Shown here piece by piece: positions 12,917 through 56,378 of a stretch of DNA of 64,000 nt (the stretch's first letter is position 1; every line of letters begins with the position of its first letter). Made by a program: the position numbers and the translations under genes. The notes below the pieces were generated by a model. That model was not told where the DNA came from. It saw nothing but the letters and a program-made list of their open reading frames with translations, and did no database searches. Source of the DNA: Solibacillus sp. FSL H8-0523 (GTDB taxonomy: Bacteria > Bacillota > Bacilli > Bacillales_A > Planococcaceae); contig NZ_CP150291.1 in assembly GCF_038051985.1 (NCBI RefSeq), positions 1,984,001 to 2,048,000 on the forward strand, in the 5' to 3' direction.

Positions 12917-14884
12917 TCAAATTGATCCTATGGCATAGGTTCGGTATAAATGCAATGCCAATGTTAGCTCTAAAAACTGGTCTGGGTTATTTAACGAGCG
13001 CATCGTCAGTTGCTCAATACGCTGTAATCGGTGATAGAGCGTGTTTTGATGAATATGCAGCTGTTCGGATGCTTTTGTAATCGAGCGATTGTGTACAATG
13101 TAGCATTGTAACGTTTGCAGTAAAATCGTATCCTTTTGCATAGTTAACGGGGCCAATACTTGCGAAACAAAGTGCTGGATATCACTACTTGTTTGCTTGG
13201 CAAATAGCCGATTAATGCCGATTTCCTCATAGCAATTTATCGCAATGTTCGTACCTTGCTTTTGGTGATGGCATAGTGCGTGCTCACTTTCTGTAAAGCT
13301 AGCCGCTATCTGTAATAAGTTATCCTGAATGGTACCCACGCCAATTGTGATAAGCTGCTGGTGAAATTGTAACCAGCTCTCAAGAATAGTCGGTAAACGT
13401 TGCACTAACGATTCACGAAACGTTTCATTTCCTTGTACGACCCAAACAACCTGATCGCTTTGCGTAAAGATAAACGGATGTGAAGGGTAGTAATGTGTTA
13501 AATGCTCTATAAATTGCATCACATGCCAGTTTGTGAAATGGCTAAATTTCATGACGACACAAAAAGTAGGCTCATAAACGGCCAACTGTAAATCCTCATA
13601 GCGCGGATCAAGTAGCGGTGCTTGCCCAGCTAAAAGATGCTGAAATAATTCAAAGCGTTCCTTATAGCTAATCTGGCTTTTTGCTTGAAATTGAATTGCC
13701 TTTAACGCTAAACTGATGCCCGCATTTTCTATAATTCGTTTTTCAGAAGCTTCAATAGGCTCTGTTGTTGTGAATAACAGATAGCCAAAAATTTGCTGCT
13801 CATTTTTAACAGGATATATATATGTTTGTTCATAAAGAGTGTGGATGCCAGGTACAGTAATCGTTTTTAATTGATTTAATACAGCGTTTTCAGGAAAAGT
13901 ATCACGGTCAAGTAAATTGACATAGTGAACGGGGTGCCCCAAGAGACGCGTCGTTTGCTCTAAAATGAGCGCCTCGTCAGCATTTTGAAACGTCAGCTTT
14001 AAAAATAGCTGATGAATCTCGTTATTTTGAACGTAATCAAAGTTCAACTGTTCGATTTGTTCATAGGCTTCAGCATTTTTTAAGGCAACTGCTGCCTGAG
14101 ATGCAAAGCTTTTTAATAGCTGTAAATCTCGATTTTGGAAAGGCATTTTATTCGAATACTGATGCACAATCATAATGCCAAATTTTCTTGTATCTGAAAA
14201 GATCGGCACGGCCATTGTTAACAAGTTTTTTGAAGGGTTTCTACTAAGTGCATGTTCAAGCGCTTCCGCATTGTCTTTTGTAACATTCCACATAATCTTG
14301 AGCGCGGCATTTAGGTCATAGATGCCAGACGTCCCTGTTTCAAATGTATAACCCGCGATTCCTTCACCGCTAGAAGGTGCATAGTTATAGATGGCATCAG
14401 TTGTCCCTTTTTTCGCAACCGTAAATAAACGCTGCTTTGTGTTGTCATACAACATCACGAAGCCACGGTCGATGGACGGGATGGCCTCAAGGGAATAATC
14501 AATGATTTTTTGGAGCAACGGCTTAATTTTTAAATCGGAATTGAGCGCAATCATAATTTCGGAAGTAGCAAGCTGCTGCTCCTGCTGCTTCATGTACAAC
14601 TGCTCGAAAAAGATTTTTTCAGCTTGAAGTTGAATATTTGTTTCATCTATCCCTCTTAAATCAAGTGAAATTTGACAAAAAACGACGTATCGCTCAGGAA
14701 GAGAAGTTTCAAATGTCGAAGAAAAAAACCCTGTGCGCGTATCAAAAACATTTTTTGATGGAAGCGTCTCCACAATGGTAGGTGTCCCACTAAATAAAAA
14801 CCATTCATTTGTAGCGCTGTAAATGTAAAACGTGCAATAATGCTGTTCTATTTTAATGTGCTTTTGTCCACTCAGAAAAGACAC
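12917..14884 (-). CDS. GAF-domain PucR/CdaR-type transcriptional regulator
   Basis: A 655-residue regulator. A GAF sensor domain lies at about 100-270 (IDRGFVMLYDN, GEGIAGYTFETG, MAVPIFSDTRKFGIMIVHQ). A central PucR-like part follows. The C terminus has the HTH_30 domain of the PucR/CdaR group (LQCYIVHNRSITKASEQLHIHQNTLYHRLQRIEQL, given here by its ends: LQCYIVHN to RLQRIEQL). It is divergent from an MFS transporter and an amidohydrolase, which it probably controls in response to their substrate. GTG 14884 is the only plausible start, but AAGGAG lies very close to it, so the start is uncertain. Confidence 0.85.
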   Translation of the reverse strand: MSFLSGQKHIKIEQHYCTFYIYSATNEWFLFSGTPTIVETLPSKNVFDTRTGFFSSTFETSLPERYVVFCQISLDLRGIDETNIQLQAEKIFFEQLYMKQQEQQLATSEIMIALNSDLKIKPLLQKIIDYSLEAIPSIDRGFVMLYDNTKQRLFTVAKKGTTDAIYNYAPSSGEGIAGYTFETGTSGIYDLNAALKIMWNVTKDNAEALEHALSRNPSKNLLTMAVPIFSDTRKFGIMIVHQYSNKMPFQNRDLQLLKSFASQAAVALKNAEAYEQIEQLNFDYVQNNEIHQLFLKLTFQNADEALILEQTTRLLGHPVHYVNLLDRDTFPENAVLNQLKTITVPGIHTLYEQTYIYPVKNEQQIFGYLLFTTTEPIEASEKRIIENAGISLALKAIQFQAKSQISYKERFELFQHLLAGQAPLLDPRYEDLQLAVYEPTFCVVMKFSHFTNWHVMQFIEHLTHYYPSHPFIFTQSDQVVWVVQGNETFRESLVQRLPTILESWLQFHQQLITIGVGTIQDNLLQIAASFTESEHALCHHQKQGTNIAINCYEEIGINRLFAKQTSSDIQHFVSQVLAPLTMQKDTILLQTLQCYIVHNRSITKASEQLHIHQNTLYHRLQRIEQLTMRSLNNPDQFLELTLALHLYRTYAIGSI

Positions 14885-15007
14885 ACTCCTTTACTTCTCC
14901 GTATTTTAGAACTTCCCACAATTCCATTCTACTAAAATTGTAACTTATTCCAATGAAATTGTCTTATATTTTTCGTAATATTTAGATAATTAAAAGGAGG
15001 CGATTAC

Positions 15008-16231
15008 ATGGAAAGTACATTAAAAAATAGAAGTACTTGGATAATGGTTGTATTGTATTTTGGATGGATTGTATCTTATGTAGATCGAACGGCGATTACA
15101 CTTGCGTTAACAAGTATTGGTTCGGATTTAACTCTGACTGCTACACAGCTCGGCTTTGTGCTCAGTGCGTTTTTCATGGGGTATGCACTCATGCAAATTC
15201 CTGGTGGTTGGTTGGCTGACCGCTTTGGTATTATAAAAATTTTAATCATTGCCGTTGCTTTTTGGTCCGTTTTCACTGCGTTTACGGGCTTAGCTTGGTC
15301 ACTAGTTGTTTTAATACTGATTCGCTTTTTATTTGGAATCGGCGAGGGTGGCTATCCTGCTGCAAGTACAAAGGCAATCGCCACTTATTATGAGAAATCA
15401 CAGCGTACAAAGGCGCAATCTACGATGATGTCATCAAATATGGTGGGGGCAGCACTGGCACCGATTATTTGTGCACCGTTACTCATCGTGTTTGGCTGGC
15501 GTACTGTATTTTTCATTATTTCGGCACTTGGGATTATTTTTATCATCGGTTTGCTGTATTTCACACGTAATGCAAAGACCTACATTGAAGAACAACAAGA
15601 CAAACCAAAGGGCTCGTTTAAGGCCGTTTTAACGAATCCGTATCTTGTAAAAGTACTAATGATTTTCTTCTTTGTGAATCTAGCGAGCTGGGGCTTAAGC
15701 TCTTGGATGCCAACGTATTTAATGCAGGAGCACAATATTAATATGGCGAGTATCGGCATTGTTGCGGCGATTCCTGCATTATTTGCAGCGGTTGGCATGA
15801 TTATTAGTGGGCGTATCATTACAACACTAGGTGCAAAATCAAAGTATGGTGTCATTTTAGGAACGTCTGTTTTAGCGATTGCGCTTATTTTAATGGCAAA
15901 TACCACTTCGATTGTGTTAATTATTGTGTATCAATGTGTGGCGTTCTCATTTATGTCATTCGTGAGCGCATTTATTTTCACAACACCACACCGTGTGGTA
16001 GAAGAAAGCAATGTGGCGACGGCATTTGGCATTGTCAATTTTGGAGGACAGGCTGCAGGGATTTTAGCACCTACAATTATGGGCTATTTAATTACCGCAT
16101 CAGGTGGCTCATTTAATACATCATTTATTTTCTTAGCAATTGTATGTGGGATAGCGGCTTGTATTGCGATGCTGTTACCTGTAAAGAAAACAGAAGTAGA
16201 AGAAATTCAATTGAAAGTTGTGGAGGGGTAA
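15008..16231 (+). CDS. MFS transporter, ACS/phthalate-like family
   Basis: A 407-residue major facilitator with about 12 membrane segments. The loop motif GGWLADRFGIIKI follows helix 2, and the N-terminal SYVDRTAITLAL pattern is that of the anion:cation symporter (ACS) branch that imports organic acids. The ATG is preceded by AAAAGGAGGCGATTAC. Its stop is one base before the amidohydrolase start, so the two form an operon. A regulator is divergent. The pair suggests import and hydrolysis of an acylated amino acid or p-aminobenzoyl-glutamate-like compound (inference). Confidence 0.88.
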   Translation: MESTLKNRSTWIMVVLYFGWIVSYVDRTAITLALTSIGSDLTLTATQLGFVLSAFFMGYALMQIPGGWLADRFGIIKILIIAVAFWSVFTAFTGLAWSLVVLILIRFLFGIGEGGYPAASTKAIATYYEKSQRTKAQSTMMSSNMVGAALAPIICAPLLIVFGWRTVFFIISALGIIFIIGLLYFTRNAKTYIEEQQDKPKGSFKAVLTNPYLVKVLMIFFFVNLASWGLSSWMPTYLMQEHNINMASIGIVAAIPALFAAVGMIISGRIITTLGAKSKYGVILGTSVLAIALILMANTTSIVLIIVYQCVAFSFMSFVSAFIFTTPHRVVEESNVATAFGIVNFGGQAAGILAPTIMGYLITASGGSFNTSFIFLAIVCGIAACIAMLLPVKKTEVEEIQLKVVEG

Positions 16232-16232
16232 C

Positions 16233-17651
16233 ATGAAACAGCAATTATTTACGTTAATGGAGCAACAGGAAGCAACATTTGCAAAAATGGCGAAGGCAAT
16301 TTGGAATCACCCACAAGTGGGCTATGAGGAAACCTATGCATTTGAGCTACAAAAAAACTTTTTATCTGAGCAAGGCTTTACGATTTCAACAGGTAGCGGT
16401 GGTGTCGAAACGGCATTTGTGGCGCAGTGGGGAACAGGTACACCGATAATCGGTTTATTAGGGGAGTTTGATGCATTACCAGGCTTAAGCCAAGAGACAA
16501 CTGTAACACAAACACCAATTATAGCGGGTGGTCCAGGCCATGGCTGCGGGCATAATTTACTTGGCACAGCTGGTGTCGAGGCAGTGGTGGCATTGAAGCA
16601 GCTAATGGAAAGGGGAAATATTGCAGGGACTATTCGTTATTACGGCTGTCCTGCGGAGGAATTATTATCAGGAAAATCGTATATGGCACGCGACGGTGTG
16701 TTTGATGATTTAGATATCGTTTACACATGGCATCCAGGAACATTTAATATGGCAGTGCATCCGTCAATGCAGGCGTTAACAGGGGTGGAATTTTTCTTTC
16801 ATGGTCGTACAGCACATGCAGCCGCCTCACCACATTTAGGACGTAGTGCACTTGACGGTGTTGAAATTATGAATGTTGGGGCCAATTATTTACGTGAGCA
16901 TGTGCCAGAAGGATCGCGTATTCATTATCAAATTACGAACGGTGGTTTGGCGCCAAACATCGTACCAGAAGATGCAAGTGTGTATTACTTCCTGCGCGGT
17001 GCAAGTCGTGATGCAGTAGACGATTTACTGCTCCGCTTAATCCGTGTGGCAGAAGGGGCAGCACATATGACGGAAACGTCGGTGCACTGGAAAATCCGTT
17101 CTGGCTGCTACGACTCGCTGCCAAACATGACGTTAAACAACCAAATGTACGCACAGTGGCAAGAGCTTCCACCGCTTGAATTTACGGACGAAGAGCAGAC
17201 GTATGCGAGGGCATTACAGCAATCGATAGATCCGTCTGTTCTAGCGGGGGCAAATCATCAGCTATCTATGATGGGGGTTGATGTTAGCCAAACGTTTATT
17301 AAAGAGCAGCTTAATATTCCACAACTGTTCCGTCAATCGATGCCTGGTTCCAGTGATTTAGGTGACGTGTCGTGGATTGCACCCCTAGGACAAGTAACAA
17401 CAGTATGCGCACCACACGGGGTACAGGTCCACACATGGCAGGCGACGTCGTCATTTGGCACATCAATTGGCATGAAAGGGATGCATTATGCTGCCAAAAC
17501 AATGGCAGGTGCGGCACTGGATTCGTTGTTAAATCCAGAAGTGATTCAAGAAGCAAAGGCAGAATTTCATCGTTTGCGTGATGGAAAAGACTATGTTTGT
17601 GCGATTCCAGCCGATATATTACCGCCGAAGCCAACGCCTGAAAAAGTGTAA
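16233..17651 (+). CDS. M20-family amidohydrolase, AbgB-like
   Basis: A zinc peptidase/amidohydrolase of family M20, closest in pattern to AbgB (p-aminobenzoyl-glutamate hydrolase subunit B). Seen: GEFDALPGLSQE, the metal-binding GPGHGCGHNLLG, GCPAEELLSGK (catalytic/bridging glutamates), and the dimerisation-domain motif GRTAHAAASPHLGRSALD. ATG 16233 is chosen since TGGAGGGG precedes it; the open frame continues upstream to 16218 inside the transporter gene. 472 residues, normal for AbgB. It lies one base after the MFS gene. The true substrate is unknown. Confidence 0.88.
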   Translation: MKQQLFTLMEQQEATFAKMAKAIWNHPQVGYEETYAFELQKNFLSEQGFTISTGSGGVETAFVAQWGTGTPIIGLLGEFDALPGLSQETTVTQTPIIAGGPGHGCGHNLLGTAGVEAVVALKQLMERGNIAGTIRYYGCPAEELLSGKSYMARDGVFDDLDIVYTWHPGTFNMAVHPSMQALTGVEFFFHGRTAHAAASPHLGRSALDGVEIMNVGANYLREHVPEGSRIHYQITNGGLAPNIVPEDASVYYFLRGASRDAVDDLLLRLIRVAEGAAHMTETSVHWKIRSGCYDSLPNMTLNNQMYAQWQELPPLEFTDEEQTYARALQQSIDPSVLAGANHQLSMMGVDVSQTFIKEQLNIPQLFRQSMPGSSDLGDVSWIAPLGQVTTVCAPHGVQVHTWQATSSFGTSIGMKGMHYAAKTMAGAALDSLLNPEVIQEAKAEFHRLRDGKDYVCAIPADILPPKPTPEKV

Positions 17652-17725: not shown

Positions 17726-19462
17726 TTATTGTGCTACCCAATGCCCTGTACTTACCTCAACAAGCTTCGTATTCTCCACATCAAAGCGGTTACTTACAAG
17801 CTCTTCATCTGTCAGGACCGCACGTTTTTTCTGCTTTTCAATCTGTGGATCAGGAATGGGGATCGAATTCAGCAGCATTTTCGTATACGGGTGCTGTGGG
17901 TTACTATACAGTTCTTCACTCTCCGCAAGCTCGACTATTTTCCCACCGTACATTACCGCGACTCGGTCACTAATATGCTTCACCATCGATAAGTCATGAG
18001 CGATGAATAAGTACGTTAAGCCTAGGCGTTGCTGCAGGTCTTTTAATAAATCAACAACCTGCTTTTGAATCGACACGTCAAGTGCAGATAAGGGCTCGTC
18101 ACATACAATAAACTGTGGCTCGACCGCGAGTGCACGGGCAATCCCGATACGTTGACGCTGGCCACCACTAAATTCGTGCGGGTAACGCAGGGCATGCTCC
18201 TTATTCAAACCGACAAGCTCTAACAATTCTTCTACGCGAGCGCGGCGCTGTTCTTTTGATTTTGTAAGCTTATGTAAATCAAGTGCTTCACCGATAATAT
18301 CTAGCACCTTTTTGCGCGGATTTAAGCTTGAATACGGGTCTTGGAAAATAATTTGCATATGGCGACGCATGCTTTTTAGCTCGTTTTTTGTTAAACGGCT
18401 AACCGGCACGCCTTTGTACAACACTTCACCGTCCGTTGGTTCATGCAGTTGCAGTAGGGTACGTCCCGTTGTAGACTTCCCAGAACCAGATTCCCCAACA
18501 AGTCCAAGCGTTTCCCCAGGATAAATTTGAAACGATAAATCATCAACAGCTTTTAAAACATGGCCTTTTGCACCGTCAAAGTGCTTCGAAATGTTTTTTA
18601 CTTCAACAAGCGGTACATTGATATTTAAATCAGCGGCTAAATTGGGCATTACTTTCGGTTCTTTTTTTTCATGGAGCTTAGGTAGGGCATTCAATAAACG
18701 CTTCGTGTAGTCGTGCTGTGGGTTGGCAAAAATTTCTTCCGTCGTACCTTGCTCGACAACTTCGCCTTCCTTCATTACAATAACTCGGTCACACATGCCG
18801 GCAACAACACCTAAATCATGGGTAATTAAAATAATCGATGTCCCGAGCTTTTCTTGCATTTGCTTCATTAACGAAAGAATTTGGGCTTGAATCGTTACGT
18901 CAAGCGCGGTTGTTGGTTCATCGGCAATGAGCAGGGAAGGGTTACAAGCAAGTGCCATCGCAATCATGACACGCTGACGCATACCACCGCTAAATTCATG
19001 AGGGTATTGATTGTAGCGTTCCTCACTATTTTTGATACCAACAAGCTTTAATAATTCAATCGTTTTCGAACGCGCATCTGCCTTAGATAAACCTTGGTGC
19101 TTAATAAGACCTTCTGCAATCTGATCTCCGATGCGAATCGTTGGGTTTGTAGATGTCATCGGATCTTGGAAAATCATACTAATGTCTTTACCGCGAATCG
19201 CTTCCATTTGTTTTTCGCTTTGCATGACTAAGTTCTTGCCTTGGAATTCAATCGTACCAGATTTTAAGAACGAAGGTGGGGACGGTAACAAACGCATAAT
19301 TGAACGGGCTGTCACACTTTTCCCGGATCCTGATTCGCCAACAATTCCGACTGTTTCACCTGCATTTACATGGAAGCTAACACCTTTCACTGCTTCAAAT
19401 TCTGATTCTTCCATTAAAAATGACACACGTAAATCCTTTACTACCAGTAGTTGTTCACTCAT
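17726..19462 (-). CDS. oligopeptide ABC transporter ATP-binding protein, two fused ATPase domains
   Basis: 578 residues hold two complete ABC ATPases in tandem, equal to OppD/DppD and OppF/DppF in one chain. Each half has a Walker A (GESGSGKS, twice), a signature (FSGGMRQR in the first, FSGGQRQR in the second), and Walker B ([12 protein letters not shown] and [12 protein letters not shown]). The second half ends with a peptide-transporter C-terminal motif region. It is divergent from two permeases and a binding lipoprotein at 19625-24385, and almost certainly powers them. The fused layout resembles GsiA-type proteins. The start ATG 19462 is behind AAAGGATG. Confidence 0.93.
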
Positions 19463-19624
19463 ATAGTAATCATCCTTTAAAGTTTTTGAATATTTGATAT
19501 TGACGAAATGATGTATCTATTTAATAATATACTATACAGGTAGGAATTATACAATATTTACTGCGTTATATTCCTTTCATACAAACATCATCCAAGACTG
19601 AGAAATATTGAAAGGAGTGATTTT

Positions 19625-21059: not shown

Positions 21060-22556
21060 GTGAAATTTATTTCGGATGTCAAGCTACTGTTAAAAATCAC
21101 ACAAGAATACATCAATGCCCAATTTACCATTGCTTTTTCTGCGATTTTTTCATTGCTGTTTTTACTTTATAGCTATAACTTCGATGCACAAAATTGGCGC
21201 GGAAATGTACTGTTACTGTTCACGGTTTATCTTGTGACGACACTTCATGTTGTGCTTATTCGCATACTGATAAAAAAGGATTTACAAAACAAGGGCGAAA
21301 TTTCAAAGCGCACGCGTATGATAGGCTTACCACTCATTTTAACGATTTTTGTTGGAAATGTGTTTGCAGCCGGCTTTGGCTTTATGCTGCTAACAAAAAA
21401 CAAAACAGCGGAATATACATTTGCTGTTTATGCATTTAATACTCAAATTTTTGTATTGCTCATTTCGAGTTTAAATATGTTTAAGCCGTACGTTGTCGAT
21501 ACCTTTTTACTGGCGATGGGGGCGTTTATCTTCCTTTCGCTATTGTATTTAGTGACAGCGATTTTAGTAGCGAATTACAATACGTCAAGCTTTGCACCGA
21601 AATGGATGCTGGGTCTTGGGGTTGTGCTACTTATCCCGATTGTAACGGGGAACTTTTTCTCGCTACTGGCAGGGATTACACTCATTCGCAAGGCACGTAA
21701 CGCGGATGCATCAGCAGTAGAAAAGTGGCAAAAAACGTGGAATAAAATTTTACGTAATACGATGGCACTGTTTGGTTTATTTATCATCGTCTTTATGTTT
21801 AGCTTATCGGTTGTGAGCGCATGGACATTTGACTATGACTTCGCAGTTGAAAATAACTACGGTGCACTATTACTTGGGCCAACACTGGAATACCCGCTTG
21901 GTACGGATAACTTCGGACGTGATCTGTTCTCACGAATTGTGTTCGGTGCACAAATTTCACTCATCGTTGGCTTTAGTGCAACGATTATCCCAGCGTTAAT
22001 CGGTGGGGCGCTCGGTGCAATTTCGGGTTATTACGGCAAAAACACTGACAATATCATTATGCGCGCACTCGATATTTTATATGCGATTCCTGGTATTTTA
22101 CTAGCGATTGCGATCATCGCGGCATTTGGTGCCAACACATTGAACTTAATCATCGCCCTAAGTGTGGGGGCAATCCCGACGTATGCGCGTACGATGCGTG
22201 CGAACGTTCTACAAATTTCTAACTACGAATATGTCGAATCCGCTCGAGCACTTGGCGCGAGTGATACGGCCATTATTTTTAAGCATATTGTGCCAAATGC
22301 AATGGCACCAATGATTGTAAAAGCAACATTAACAATCGGTGGCGCTGTAATTTCTACAAGTAGTTTAAGCTTCCTAGGCCTTGGTATTGAACCACATATT
22401 CCCGAGTGGGGCAATATTTTAAAAGTCGGAAGCACGTATTTAGAGTCGCATTCGTATTTAGCTATTTTCCCAGGGCTGTGCATTATGCTATTAGTTTTAT
22501 CGTTTAACTTCTTTGGCGATGGCTTACGCGATGCATTAGACCCAAAATCAAATTAA
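21060..22556 (+). CDS. peptide ABC transporter permease (DppC-like) with six-segment N-terminal extension
   Basis: The part from about residue 227 is a standard DppC/OppC permease: LRNTMALFGLFIIVFMF, PTLEYPLGTDNFGRDLFSR, and the EAA loop YVESARALGASDTAIIFKHIVPN. The first ~220 residues are extra and contain about six hydrophobic segments (near 23-40, 49-68, 88-112, 122-140, 147-172, 184-208). Typical DppC proteins are about 300 residues; this is 498. Start is GTG 21060 behind AGGAGAGGG, 13 bases after the partner permease. Both permeases in this system carry extensions, which is unusual. Confidence 0.9.
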   Translation: MKFISDVKLLLKITQEYINAQFTIAFSAIFSLLFLLYSYNFDAQNWRGNVLLLFTVYLVTTLHVVLIRILIKKDLQNKGEISKRTRMIGLPLILTIFVGNVFAAGFGFMLLTKNKTAEYTFAVYAFNTQIFVLLISSLNMFKPYVVDTFLLAMGAFIFLSLLYLVTAILVANYNTSSFAPKWMLGLGVVLLIPIVTGNFFSLLAGITLIRKARNADASAVEKWQKTWNKILRNTMALFGLFIIVFMFSLSVVSAWTFDYDFAVENNYGALLLGPTLEYPLGTDNFGRDLFSRIVFGAQISLIVGFSATIIPALIGGALGAISGYYGKNTDNIIMRALDILYAIPGILLAIAIIAAFGANTLNLIIALSVGAIPTYARTMRANVLQISNYEYVESARALGASDTAIIFKHIVPNAMAPMIVKATLTIGGAVISTSSLSFLGLGIEPHIPEWGNILKVGSTYLESHSYLAIFPGLCIMLLVLSFNFFGDGLRDALDPKSN

Positions 22557-22570
22557 CTGGAGGCATTAAC

Positions 22571-24385
22571 ATGAACAAGAAATTATTTACGTTAGCATCA
22601 ACTGCAACTGTAGCAGCCGTGGCATTAGCTGGCTGTGTCGAAACAAAATCAGATGTGAAAGAAAACGATGGCAATACAAATGAAGCAACGGGTGACAAAG
22701 TAGTTATCGAGCTTTTAGGGATGGCGTCATCTGAACAAGATTTAAACATCGTACGTGACCAATTAGTGAAAAACGGCTTTGACGTAAAATTAAATATCCA
22801 ACCAGATTACGGTTCATTTAAAGCGCAGCAAGATGCAGGGAACTATGATATCGCAGCATCAAGTTGGACGACTGTAACAGGTAACCCAGATTATGCAGTG
22901 CGCGGATTATTCAAATCGGACGGTGCGTCTTCAAACGTAGCCGATGAAACAATCGACAAGCTAATCGACGAAGCAAGTACATTAGTTGGTGATGAAGCAA
23001 AAGAGAAATACAAAGAGCTTGAGCAAACGCTTGTATTCGATAATGCGTACATCGCACCACTTTACATTTCTCAAAAGTTCCAAGGGATTTATAAAAATGA
23101 AGTAAATCCAGATACAGTGCGCCTGCCAAAATCTCGTGCGCAAGCTTGGGAAGCCATTTCATTTAACGATGTGGCAAAAAATGCATCAGAAACATTAGTA
23201 TTACACCAAACAATGGGCTCGTTAACATCACTAGATCCTGTAAAAGGAAATGACGGTTCGATTAACACTTTAAACACAAATATGTACGTACGTTTAGTGA
23301 ATTTATCGGATACGGATGAAGTCGTATCAGACGGTTCATTATCATATGACCACGCGATTGCTGAAAACAATGAAGAATTCTACTTCGTGCTACGCGATGA
23401 CATTAACTTCGCAAAAGTGGAAGGCGAAAAAGCAGTAGATACAGGCGATTTAGTATCGGCTGAGGATGTTGTCTTCTCATTAAATCGTGCGAAAGATCAA
23501 AACGCTGTACCAGATCACCGTACGTATTCTTTACATGAAAACATCGAAACAGTAGAAGTTGTTTCAGATTTAACAGCTTTAGAGTCAGTGAAAACAGCAG
23601 GCGGCAAATCAATTTTAGAAGAGTTATCAGATAAAGTACCAGCAGCAATTTCTGAAGCGGTAACAGCTGAAGGCGATGTAGATAACGCGGCGGGTAAATA
23701 CCAAGTGGTGAAAATCACAACACCAAAAGCATTCCCACAAGTATTAAACTACTTAGCACACCAATCTGGCGGTATTGTGTCAGAGGCAGCGGTAACAGCA
23801 GTAAATACATTTGACGTAGCAAGCTATGATCCAAACAAGGACATCGCATATGGTGACCAAGCGGCTGTAACAGAAGGTGCGACTTACGCGAACCACCTAG
23901 CAGCATCGGGTCCCTACATTTTAGTGAAGAAAAACGATTATGAAGCAACATTCGTGAAAAACCCGGCATATCTTGCAGGCACTGAAAATGAGCCAAAAGT
24001 AAATGACATTTCAGTACGCTTCATCGCAGATAACGACAGCGCACTTTCAGCATTACGTAACGGCGAAATTCACGTACTACAATCTGTTCCTGAAACTAAA
24101 ACAGATGTTGTCGAAGGTGATGCAAACTTAGTGCTGAAAACAGCAGATAGTAACGCCGTTTCTTATTTACTATTCAATACAAAAGAGGATCGCGTGACTG
24201 CTTCAGCGGATTTACGAAAAGCGGTACTTCACTCAATTAACCAAGAAGAGTTTATCAGCTTCTACCAAGGTAAGAAAAAACCTGCAGTATCAACAGTGAC
24301 ACCTTTAATCGATACAGGCCTGAAGCTACAAGCTGATCAAGCAAAAGTAAAAGAATTTATAAACGCTTATAACGCGTCGAAATAA
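22571..24385 (+). CDS. solute-binding lipoprotein, SBP_bac_5 family, circularly permuted domain order
   Basis: A lipoprotein: signal with lipobox LAGC (Cys22). Residues about 43-197 read like the end of a normal family-5 peptide-binding protein (a QLVKNGFDVKLN strand pair, GNYDIAASSW, NPDYAVRGLF, then a ..DKLIDEAS..EKYKELEQTLV..IAPLYI tail). From about 208 the sequence reads like the usual beginning (LVLHQTMGSLTSLDPVKG, FVLRDDINF, LVSAEDVVFSLNRAKD). It ends with the usual middle (LRKAVLHSINQEEFISF, then AKVKEFINAYNASK). Total length fits a single permuted domain rather than a fusion. It should feed the adjacent extended permeases. Peptide specificity is unknown. Confidence 0.88.
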   Translation: MNKKLFTLASTATVAAVALAGCVETKSDVKENDGNTNEATGDKVVIELLGMASSEQDLNIVRDQLVKNGFDVKLNIQPDYGSFKAQQDAGNYDIAASSWTTVTGNPDYAVRGLFKSDGASSNVADETIDKLIDEASTLVGDEAKEKYKELEQTLVFDNAYIAPLYISQKFQGIYKNEVNPDTVRLPKSRAQAWEAISFNDVAKNASETLVLHQTMGSLTSLDPVKGNDGSINTLNTNMYVRLVNLSDTDEVVSDGSLSYDHAIAENNEEFYFVLRDDINFAKVEGEKAVDTGDLVSAEDVVFSLNRAKDQNAVPDHRTYSLHENIETVEVVSDLTALESVKTAGGKSILEELSDKVPAAISEAVTAEGDVDNAAGKYQVVKITTPKAFPQVLNYLAHQSGGIVSEAAVTAVNTFDVASYDPNKDIAYGDQAAVTEGATYANHLAASGPYILVKKNDYEATFVKNPAYLAGTENEPKVNDISVRFIADNDSALSALRNGEIHVLQSVPETKTDVVEGDANLVLKTADSNAVSYLLFNTKEDRVTASADLRKAVLHSINQEEFISFYQGKKKPAVSTVTPLIDTGLKLQADQAKVKEFINAYNASK

Positions 24386-24427: not shown

Positions 24428-24600
24428 GCATTGTATGGGACGTGGCGGGAGCGCGTTATGGAGTTGGAAAGTGTTGAAATTTACTAATTTACATACAATT
24501 TAACTGAGTAATTATTCATAAAATAAGGAAAAATAAACAAAGCCTTCTAAATTCGTGATACACTACAACTACATAGAACATGCAGGAAAGGTTGATGAAC

Positions 24601-26442
24601 ATGAACTTAAAAAAATCAGCATTATTAGTATCATTAGCGGCGATTCCAGCCATTACCATGATCGCGGAAGATACGTCGGCAAATACATATTATCCAAACT
24701 ATTCTTATGACCAGACGCAAGTATCGAAGGTTATTCAATTAATTAATAACATAGATCCTGCGAGCTCATCGTATTCATATTATGTACAAGAAGCGTTTAC
24801 AGCGTATTACAATTTAAATGAATATGAACAACGTGGTGTAACTAATATAAATACCTTATTTTATTACTACAATTACACAACACCGAATGGTAATTATTAT
24901 TTAAATGTCGTGCAAACTTTCGTTAATAAAATGAATTCGATTTCAACAACGAAGTCGTCATTTTTACGCGATGTACAAGAGGCCAATCGTTATTATGATT
25001 CATTAACCGTATCTGAAAAGTCATCGATACCTTATTATTTAGTTACCCAATTAAGTACATACAATGACAATATTGCAAAAATGCGTGCCGTTGAAAATAG
25101 TTTTAAGATACTATCAACAGTCGATGTCAATTACACAACGAACTATTTAGCGGCGCTACGTGATTTCAACGCACTTCCATATAGCTACCGTTTACTGATT
25201 CAAACGATTGCAGACGAAAAAGCACTGCAATACAGTCAGTACCATTCGGTGGAATATAACCGTGCAACTGCACAAAAAGTCGTATCGGCCATTTCAAATT
25301 TAACATCATCTTCAAGCACGACAGCTGTTGGTGATGTGCGCACCATGTACAACAATCTAACGACGCTACAGAAAAGCTACGTAACGAATGTACGCGAATT
25401 ACTTTACATTGAGGACGTGCAAAAAAACGTTGAAAACGGTTGGAACCCATACTATTACGATGAAAAAGAAAATGAAGATGATTATGAAGTAGATTATTCA
25501 AACATTACCGTAAATCAGCGTGGTTCGACGTATTACATTAACATGCCTGTCTCGGAAATGGATAAGCATACACCAACTTTAATCAGCGTCTCAGATTCTA
25601 TTTCTCTTAAAATTCCTCGATTTGCCGTACCGGTATCCCAAAAAAATGCCGTTGTAGCTATGACAATTGAGGAGAATGATAATTACGGTCTAGCGTTTTC
25701 AGCAAGCCTATTCGATGAGGGTTTTGAATTCGCTTCTTATATTGATATAGAAGTGAAGGGTTTAAGTTCGACTGATGTCCTTATGCGTATTGGGGACCAA
25801 GGCGAATACCTTGCAGCGCCTTTTGCCCGCAAGTTAAATAAGCATGTTATTAAAACGAAAACTTCTTCGGAATATATCGTAAAAAATGAAACACCATTAT
25901 TCTATGATATTCGAGCAGATGGCCACCGTTATGAAATCTTACAATTAGCAAAACGTAAAATTGTATCTGGTGTAGAACCAAATTATTATAAGCCAAACGC
26001 CAGTGTGACAATTTCCCAATACGCGGCAATGATTAGTCGTGCGATGGATTTAACAGCAAAAAACCCATCAACCTATATGGATGTCCGAGGTAAATGGTTT
26101 GAAGATTCGATTGAAGCCCTCATTGAGGCAGATATACTCGATGAGAAAAAATCAAATTATTTCAATACAGAACAAGTCGTAACGCGTAAGCAAGCTGCAC
26201 AAATGTCCATTCGTATGCTAGAGCATGCAGGGGTAGACATTTCAGACCCAGATTATAAAGGTATTCCATTTAAAGACTTCTCAAAACTGACAGCCAGTGA
26301 ACAATACTTTGTGGCCATTGCCTATGAATATGGTATTTTTGGCGGCAAAGCAAACGGCCGCTTTGATCCAAACGCCAAACTGACGCGCTCACAAATGGCA
26401 AAAGTACTACATCGTACACTACAAGTTGCAAGAATGATGTAA
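24601..26442 (+). CDS. SLH-domain surface protein with N-terminal helical repeats
   Basis: A 613-residue exported protein. A signal peptide (LKKSALLVSLAAIPAITMIA) comes first. Residues about 30-280 form three or four helical repeats with Tyr-rich, Asn-rich spacing (QVSKVIQLINNID, VVQTFVNKMNSIST, ATAQKVVSAISNLT, each followed by a ~50-residue unit). A beta-rich middle part follows. The last ~160 residues are S-layer homology domains (KPNASVTISQYAAMISRAMD; VTRKQAAQMSIRML; FDPNAKLTRSQMAKVLHRTL), which bind secondary cell wall polymers. ATG 24601 is preferred over the upstream in-frame 24580 and 24595, for spacing to AGGAAAGG. Single-gene unit. Confidence 0.88.
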   Translation: MNLKKSALLVSLAAIPAITMIAEDTSANTYYPNYSYDQTQVSKVIQLINNIDPASSSYSYYVQEAFTAYYNLNEYEQRGVTNINTLFYYYNYTTPNGNYYLNVVQTFVNKMNSISTTKSSFLRDVQEANRYYDSLTVSEKSSIPYYLVTQLSTYNDNIAKMRAVENSFKILSTVDVNYTTNYLAALRDFNALPYSYRLLIQTIADEKALQYSQYHSVEYNRATAQKVVSAISNLTSSSSTTAVGDVRTMYNNLTTLQKSYVTNVRELLYIEDVQKNVENGWNPYYYDEKENEDDYEVDYSNITVNQRGSTYYINMPVSEMDKHTPTLISVSDSISLKIPRFAVPVSQKNAVVAMTIEENDNYGLAFSASLFDEGFEFASYIDIEVKGLSSTDVLMRIGDQGEYLAAPFARKLNKHVIKTKTSSEYIVKNETPLFYDIRADGHRYEILQLAKRKIVSGVEPNYYKPNASVTISQYAAMISRAMDLTAKNPSTYMDVRGKWFEDSIEALIEADILDEKKSNYFNTEQVVTRKQAAQMSIRMLEHAGVDISDPDYKGIPFKDFSKLTASEQYFVAIAYEYGIFGGKANGRFDPNAKLTRSQMAKVLHRTLQVARMM

Positions 26443-56057: not shown

Positions 56058-56378
56058 TTTACAAATACGAACGTCTATGCTATTATAAGTAAGTGCTATT
56101 TTAGGTAGTACTATAAATAAATTGGCATTTCTGCTAGTGTTTTTGAGGATACTTATTCACACTGGCGCAAGCTTAAGGGCTGCAAGGACATAGTAGCAGG
56201 TAGGGACTATGTTGCTTAAGTTAGAAAAGATTAGTAGAATTTTACCGCGGTTAAAACTGAAAGTACGAACTTTCGAATGATATAATTCCCCGGATGATCG
56301 GGTTGAGACTTTCATTTATTTATAAAACTATCTATTAAATACTAGAGGGGACCCCGTTTTCAATGGGGTCCCCTTGTC
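56058..56378 (+). ncRNA. candidate structured RNA with own promoter and terminator
   Basis: A promoter with TTTACA (56058-56063) and TATTAT (56081-56086), spacing 17, drives no open frame. A strong stem at 56347-56373 (GGGGACCCC / GGGGTCCCC) ends the unit, giving about 280 bases. Long-range pairing is seen: TATAAATAAA (56112-56121) with TTTATTTATA (56315-56324), plus GGTAG (56104-56108) with CTATC (56328-56332). Inner hairpins: ACATAGT/ACTATGT inside a GCTTAAG pair near 56170-56220, and CCCG/CGGG near 56288-56302. The closing stem with branched interior recalls 6S-like architecture, but no known family was recognised. Confidence 0.55.

Follow-up and report, generated by a model that had tools for sequence, protein, structure and literature searches.

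The closest described counterpart of the locus analysed here is GisABCD-Ggt of Staphylococcus aureus (SAUSA300_0200-0204). Transposon mutants in each of its five genes grew poorly with GSSG or GSH as sole sulfur source, and complete Gis systems were reported, as far as the text of that paper goes, only in the S. aureus-related complex (PMC10355420). In another account of S. aureus, SACOL0185-0188 are listed as permease, permease, RGD-containing lipoprotein and ggt (PMC4207797). The main text of the Gis paper contains no word with the stem 'permut' (PMC10355420). A naturally circularly permuted, membrane-tethered ABC binding lipoprotein has been described from Treponema pallidum, TpMglB-2 (Tp0684), placed in 'Cluster Bc', and its authors consider that the permuted topology might be an adaptation to attachment at the membrane (PMC4990184).

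The window (the whole stretch of DNA analysed, 64,000 nucleotides of Solibacillus sp. FSL H8-0523) carries at genome positions 2001726-2008385 a cassette with the same four components in the same order as in the staphylococcal loci: a divergent ATPase, PermB, PermC and, as the last gene, a lipoprotein (Table 1). Unlike in S. aureus, no ggt adjoins the cassette; the lipoproteins are 40% identical, and of the extension carried by the window PermC about the first 110 residues are missing from the staphylococcal protein. With canonical cluster C proteins (DppA, GsiB (YliB, 1uqw), AppA and 5u4o) the window lipoprotein shares the sequence family and the fold, including domain Ib, but it differs in segment order, in anchor position and in two dipeptide-gripping residues of DppA, which are not conserved. 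The canonical segment order with an N-terminal anchor on lobe I is absent, which makes it a permuted member of solute-binding protein family 5. Like TpMglB-2 it is a permuted, lipid-anchored ABC binding lipoprotein; judged by its description, TpMglB-2 is set apart by a cluster B sugar-binding fold with N-lobe strands moved to the C-terminus, whereas the window protein belongs to cluster C and has another breakpoint. We consider it likely that the locus encodes a permuted cluster C fold of the GisD family, acting as a flytrap tethered through lobe II in a four-gene Bacillales importer for sulfur compounds with extended permeases. The earlier note held that natural permutations in this family are not common knowledge. 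For cluster C this stands, no report of a natural permutation in cluster C or in GisD having been found in the open-licence literature, but permutation as such is already known in cluster B from TpMglB-2 (PMC4990184).

Table 1. Features of the cassette and of the permuted lipoprotein (positions in the window).
Feature	Position	Strand	Basis
Double ABC ATPase of 578 aa with both ATPase domains in a single chain, divergent from PermB	17726..19462	-	Pfam ABC_tran (two stretches), oligo_HPY
Conserved operator-like motif TATACTATACAGGTAGGAATTAT in the divergent promoter region	19528..19550	+	Motif count over promoter regions, genome scan
PermB, OppB-type permease, 473 aa	19625..21046	+	Pfam BPD_transp_1, BPD_transp_1_N
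PermB N-terminal extension, ~162 aa	19625..20110	+	Pfam, hydropathy, genome profile search
PermC, OppC-type permease, 498 aa	21060..22556	+	Pfam BPD_transp_1, OppC_N
PermC N-terminal extension, ~218 aa, no Pfam family; five membrane segments predicted from hydropathy	21060..21713	+	Pfam, hydropathy, genome profile search
Circularly permuted family-5 solute-binding lipoprotein (GisD-like), 604 aa	22571..24385	+	ORF, Pfam, profile rotation
Signal peptide, lipobox (Cys22) and low-confidence linker, residues 1-41	22571..22693	+	Sequence; pLDDT <50 at residues 1-40
Residues 42-203, canonical C-terminal third placed first: rest of lobe II and C-terminal strand region	22694..23179	+	phmmer, rotation, homologue frames; weak fold match of the piece alone
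Seam, residues 196-208, canonical C- and N-termini joined	23156..23194	+	Best rotation cuts 182-212
Residues 204-604, canonical N-terminal two thirds: domains Ia, Ib and first part of lobe II, ending in helix 590-603	23180..24382	+	Pfam, AlphaFold2, rotation, VIA-align

In the translation of 22571-24385, the lipobox (...ALAGC22) and a linker are followed by the canonical C-terminal third (about residues 42-203) and then by the canonical N-terminal two thirds (about 204-604). The landmarks GNYDIAASSW, NPDYAVRGLF, DKLIDEAS, KYKELEQTLV and IAPLYI precede LVLHQTMGSLTSLDPV, FVLRDDINF and LVSAEDVVFSLNRA, in the order in which they had been read before. Against Pfam SBP_bac_5 the native chain scored 128.1 bits (curated cut-off 32.4) in two stretches, the stronger of which placed residues 264-582 on profile positions 13-253. 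After rotation (residues 205-604 followed by 42-204) the score was 134.2 bits, in one stretch covering 13-366 of the 368 profile positions. The genome search found, in one open frame, profile positions 298-366 (28.7 bits, a match that taken alone is below the family cut-off) upstream of positions 13-254 (104 bits). The permutation explains this piecewise matching of family profiles to the lipoprotein. The best solved relative, 5u4o, was matched by phmmer in reversed pieces, with residues 429-563 on chain 184-315 and residues 59-164 on chain 380-489. Rotation gave one piece over chain 184-489, with a small gain in total score from 51.5 to 54.3 bits.

A rotation scan was performed against a profile of length 545 made from ten normal paralogues of the same genome. 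In native order the lipoprotein reached 104 bits (positions 62-355). With cuts placed at residues 182-212 and the pieces rejoined, it reached 139-140 bits, the cut at 202, for example, covering positions 64-524. The normal controls L002 and L008, each omitted from its own scoring profile, peaked in native order, and a third, L006, scored 203 bits in native order and 204 one 20-residue step further. Since controls peak at or within one step of their native order, the gain on rotation is not due to chance. The rotated score exceeded the native one in all 27 family rows, among which P0094 and L062 score identically and are probably one protein; in no row did a cut in the wrong place (400) outscore the correct rotation, though some rows scored higher with it than in native order. 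Together with the reversed pieces on 5u4o, the scan bears out the circular permutation proposed in the earlier note, and the lipoprotein is confirmed as a complete family-5 (cluster C) binding protein in permuted order.

The same order was found in homologues, whose collection had been suggested before. With a profile of rotated proteins, 10 of 121 genomes held a permuted gene, recognized by two matches per gene (from 1 or 2 to 400-412, and from 384-397 to 562-563), while normal proteins gave single matches that span the seam near 402, such as 241-526. No close relative in normal order was seen in the 121 genomes, the top normal match having 104.9 bits. Of 346 stretches picked up in a scan of GTDB species genomes, 330 were confirmed as lipoprotein matches. 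All of the best 80 of these 330 loci have the permuted order, with the moved segment inside the open frame (163 residues in 79 of them, 149 in L145).

The whole protein was predicted by AlphaFold2 with a mean pLDDT of 83.2 and a pTM of 0.81. In each of the 50 entries listed by VIA-align, the aligned part of the model starts at residue 195-208, stops at 601-604 and falls on the first part of the chain only, ending at chain position 322-397 (DppA, for example, 1-342 of 507) and leaving an unmatched chain end of about 160 residues, the size of the moved segment. These entries are other binding proteins, titled peptide-, nickel-, opine-, sialic-acid- and similar binding proteins; Pfam puts the window protein in family 5. 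Order-bound Foldseek matches had a TM on the query of at most 0.43 among those listed. The model ends in helix 590-603, and its C-terminal end is aligned by VIA-align at SapA 396-397. As SapA domain II comprises residues 313-531 (PMC8519434), this end places the new termini inside lobe II. In the predicted model the break falls in a lobe II loop, between helix 590-603 and strand 45-51. Other oligopeptide-binding proteins have both termini near each other in domain I (PMC10924461), so that joining them is feasible.

By these computations the lipoprotein is a single cluster C fold with the canonical termini joined and new ones opened in a lobe II loop. With the new N-terminus in lobe II, the lipid anchor would shift from lobe I to lobe II, and from the alignments the tether would leave lobe II and not lobe I; in the other solved members of the family both termini are in lobe I. 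The lipid-anchored flytrap would still feed a type I ABC importer, and the moved tether may alter the way in which a lobe is turned towards the transporter. GisD carries the annotation of an ordinary peptide-binding lipoprotein, and the permutation calls for a different way of modelling it. In this family nature offers a conserved experiment on how ABC import depends on segment order and on the point at which a flytrap is tethered.

Both permeases carry N-terminal extensions. That of PermC gave no Pfam match at E 0.1 and that of PermB only matches under the family cut-offs. Hydropathy indicated five candidate membrane segments in PermC before residue 218 and one in PermB before residue 164. 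Nine membrane regions are more than usual for the permease class of GisB and GisC. This number is predicted for both of these proteins (PMC10355420). The PermC extension was present in 34 of 398 Bacilli genomes, exactly the 34 with a full-length permuted gene, and no genome among the 398 had it without that gene; in three genomes near Staphylococcus only its second half matched, weakly (E 9e-8 to 6e-4). The PermB extension was found in 31 of the 34 genomes, the three missed being those near Staphylococcus, with weak matches (E 5e-6 to 9e-4) in three other genomes. Among the 79 complete named loci from the best 80 of 330, and with the limits set here, 79 have the PermB extension and 77 that of PermC.

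One could picture a distinct type I importer in which the permuted protein, tethered via lobe II, would be held on the translocator by the extra membrane-embedded permease N-termini, as one co-adapted solution spread through the Bacillales including S. aureus; we regard this coupling as possible but rather unlikely. With a chance somewhat short of even, the permutation is real but neutral, a product of chance duplication and deletion that was fixed once and has no effect on docking, the permease extensions being unrelated companions in the operon. The cassette genes are adjacent, so their co-occurrence shows that the block is inherited together and not that its parts are mechanically coupled; even perfect co-occurrence needs no such coupling. 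Permuted TpMglB-2, moreover, retains ligand binding and ligand-induced change (PMC4990184). The lack of a close normal-order relative in the 121 genomes, and of a PermC extension apart from the permuted gene in the 398, speak against neutrality, but both are compatible with it too.

The substrate of the importer with the permuted protein was approached through its relatives and its promoter. A search with the most diverged member (L092) returned, among the best 120 of 219 matches, an S. aureus cluster at 80% identity with 4289 members (P0122), which is 40% identical to the window lipoprotein and, like it, scores higher when rotated. In the staphylococcal loci L092-L094 a double ATPase diverges from permease, permease and lipoprotein genes as in the window. 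In L092 a 669-residue frame that matches the gamma-glutamyl transpeptidase family directly follows the lipoprotein, and such a neighbour is present in all three genomes near Staphylococcus. On the basis of 40% identity and gene order, the window lipoprotein very probably belongs to the staphylococcal GisD family, with P0122 taken as GisD. No ggt stands beside the window cassette, the one Ggt-family match of the genome lying far off (C1:149268-150752). Among 16 non-staphylococcal cassette holders searched, 12 have a Ggt-family gene and, by comparison of positions, none has it adjoining the cassette.

A GGAAT core with flanks occurs in 86 of 110 divergent promoter regions. The pattern [AT]NGGAATT was counted in 58 of the 110, compared with 5.6 on average and at most 12 when the letters were shuffled 200 times; by the criterion used the motif was not found in 24 of the 110 regions, which include all three staphylococcal ones. 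In the window genome TATACTATACNNNTMGGAATTAT occurs four times with up to three mismatches (reversed control: 0), the match at 19528-19550 being exact. A second copy (L220:1837-1859) precedes a DszC/SfnB-like oxidoreductase with an SsuA-like transporter, a sulfonate-type operon. A third (L222:2451-2473) lies about 50 bases before a gene that reads as DsbA-like, followed by a cystine-type binding protein and permease, and is on the strand opposite to these genes; the fourth (L221) is inside a reading frame. The sulfur family names of these neighbours are best NCBIfam matches below the curated cut-offs. We take the motif at 19528-19550 to resemble a CymR box, and this putative operator is probably one of sulfur control (CymR-like). 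Its sharing between the cassette and the sulfonate-type and cystine-type operons supports a sulfur role; glutathione is less well supported. For S. aureus one source assigns the ATPase gene SA0198 to the CymR regulon and, in the same text, gives no such mark to either permease gene or to the lipoprotein gene; sulfide represses all four (PMC5480029).

The system thus probably imports glutathione or a related sulfur compound under control by sulfur supply, with glutathione itself a candidate substrate. A permuted protein with another substrate, be it a peptide, a metal chelate or another thiol compound, appears a doubtful alternative. It would fit the identity of only 40% with the S. aureus protein, the ggt that is not adjacent in the window genome, and the many ligands bound by family-5 proteins (PMC8519434); the cassette and gene order common to the staphylococcal loci and the motif common to sulfonate- and cystine-type operons argue against it. 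There is a further objection. Arg383 and Asp436 of DppA grip the dipeptide ends (PMC12136057); in the lipoprotein Asp436 faces Val102 and Arg383 faces Glu55, the latter pairing bordering a gap, so a DppA-like grip on the dipeptide ends is not kept.

It is very improbable that residues of about 40-200 are an extra N-terminal domain fused ahead of a complete binding protein, although many family-5 proteins are shorter than the lipoprotein by about 100 residues (473-571 aa in PDB chains). On the paralogue profile residues 204-604 cover only positions 62-355 and residues 42-203 supply 356-524, and the frame holds no other canonical C-terminal third. Residues 204-604 were accordingly found to be without that third and not a complete fold. 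They correspond to the first 320-400 residues or so of solved family-5 proteins and residues 42-203 to the remainder, which upholds the earlier preference for a permutation over a duplication or fusion. Modelled alone, segment 42-204 folded poorly (pLDDT 66.4, pTM 0.40), whereas its ten-residue blocks average a pLDDT of 78-97 in the whole model. An assembly or gene-calling artefact is refuted by independent genomes and has a negligible probability, the window genome being closed (4.14 Mb) and the same order recurring in 57 of 150 genomes of the order and in 80 of the best 80 named loci of 330.

The single cluster C fold in permuted order is widespread together with its cassette. Near full-length lipoprotein matches were found in those 57 genomes, one of them with an internal stop; a draw of 398 genomes from the class (Bacilli) gave 34 full-length matches and one partial match, and a draw from the phylum four positive genomes of 398, all from the same class. 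Homologues named among the best 120 of 1354 came from Solibacillus, Lysinibacillus, Metasolibacillus, Ureibacillus and Chryseomicrobium, and the best 80 of the 330 GTDB loci from Solibacillus, Lysinibacillus, Ureibacillus, Sporosarcina, Psychrobacillus, Cytobacillus, Bacillus, Paenibacillus and others. All four genes are present in 79 of these 80, the record of the 80th being short, and among the 79 the canonical cassette order is kept in 77 and the ATPase exceeds 500 aa in 78. The cassette of divergent double ATPase, two permeases and lipoprotein recurs in the Bacillales, and Gis-type importers extend past the staphylococci to many members of this order, as seen in the best 80 of the 330 confirmed stretches.

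Several variants were observed. At L096:6892-13792 all genes are on one strand and two separate 327-aa ATPase genes, in place of the divergent double one, lie between PermC and the permuted lipoprotein. The ATPase is split into two frames at L061:1731-4958, where PermB is short (358 aa), and this copy may be decaying or differently organised. Genome G472 (L095:7186-7833), the one with the partial match in the class draw, retains a lipoprotein remnant in which only about residues 392-601 are matched and the cassette is gone, a lost system. In S. aureus the chains P0124-P0126, of 873 residues, consist of a permease domain and, behind it, the permuted binding protein, apparently through natural deletions that fused adjacent genes. 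A locus titled Arthrobacter (L146) has a lipoprotein gene that falls at 65% identity among the Bacillales members, possibly from a mislabelled genome. In the window, the gene following the cassette (24580-26442) is by reading unrelated to it. On the other side (12917-17651) are a PucR/AdeR-like regulator, an MFS transporter and an M20-type amidohydrolase, with no recurrence beside the cassette elsewhere. A match to the Rfam small RNA BsrC was found at 56137-56225 on the reverse strand, with 49.9 bits (gathering score 38).
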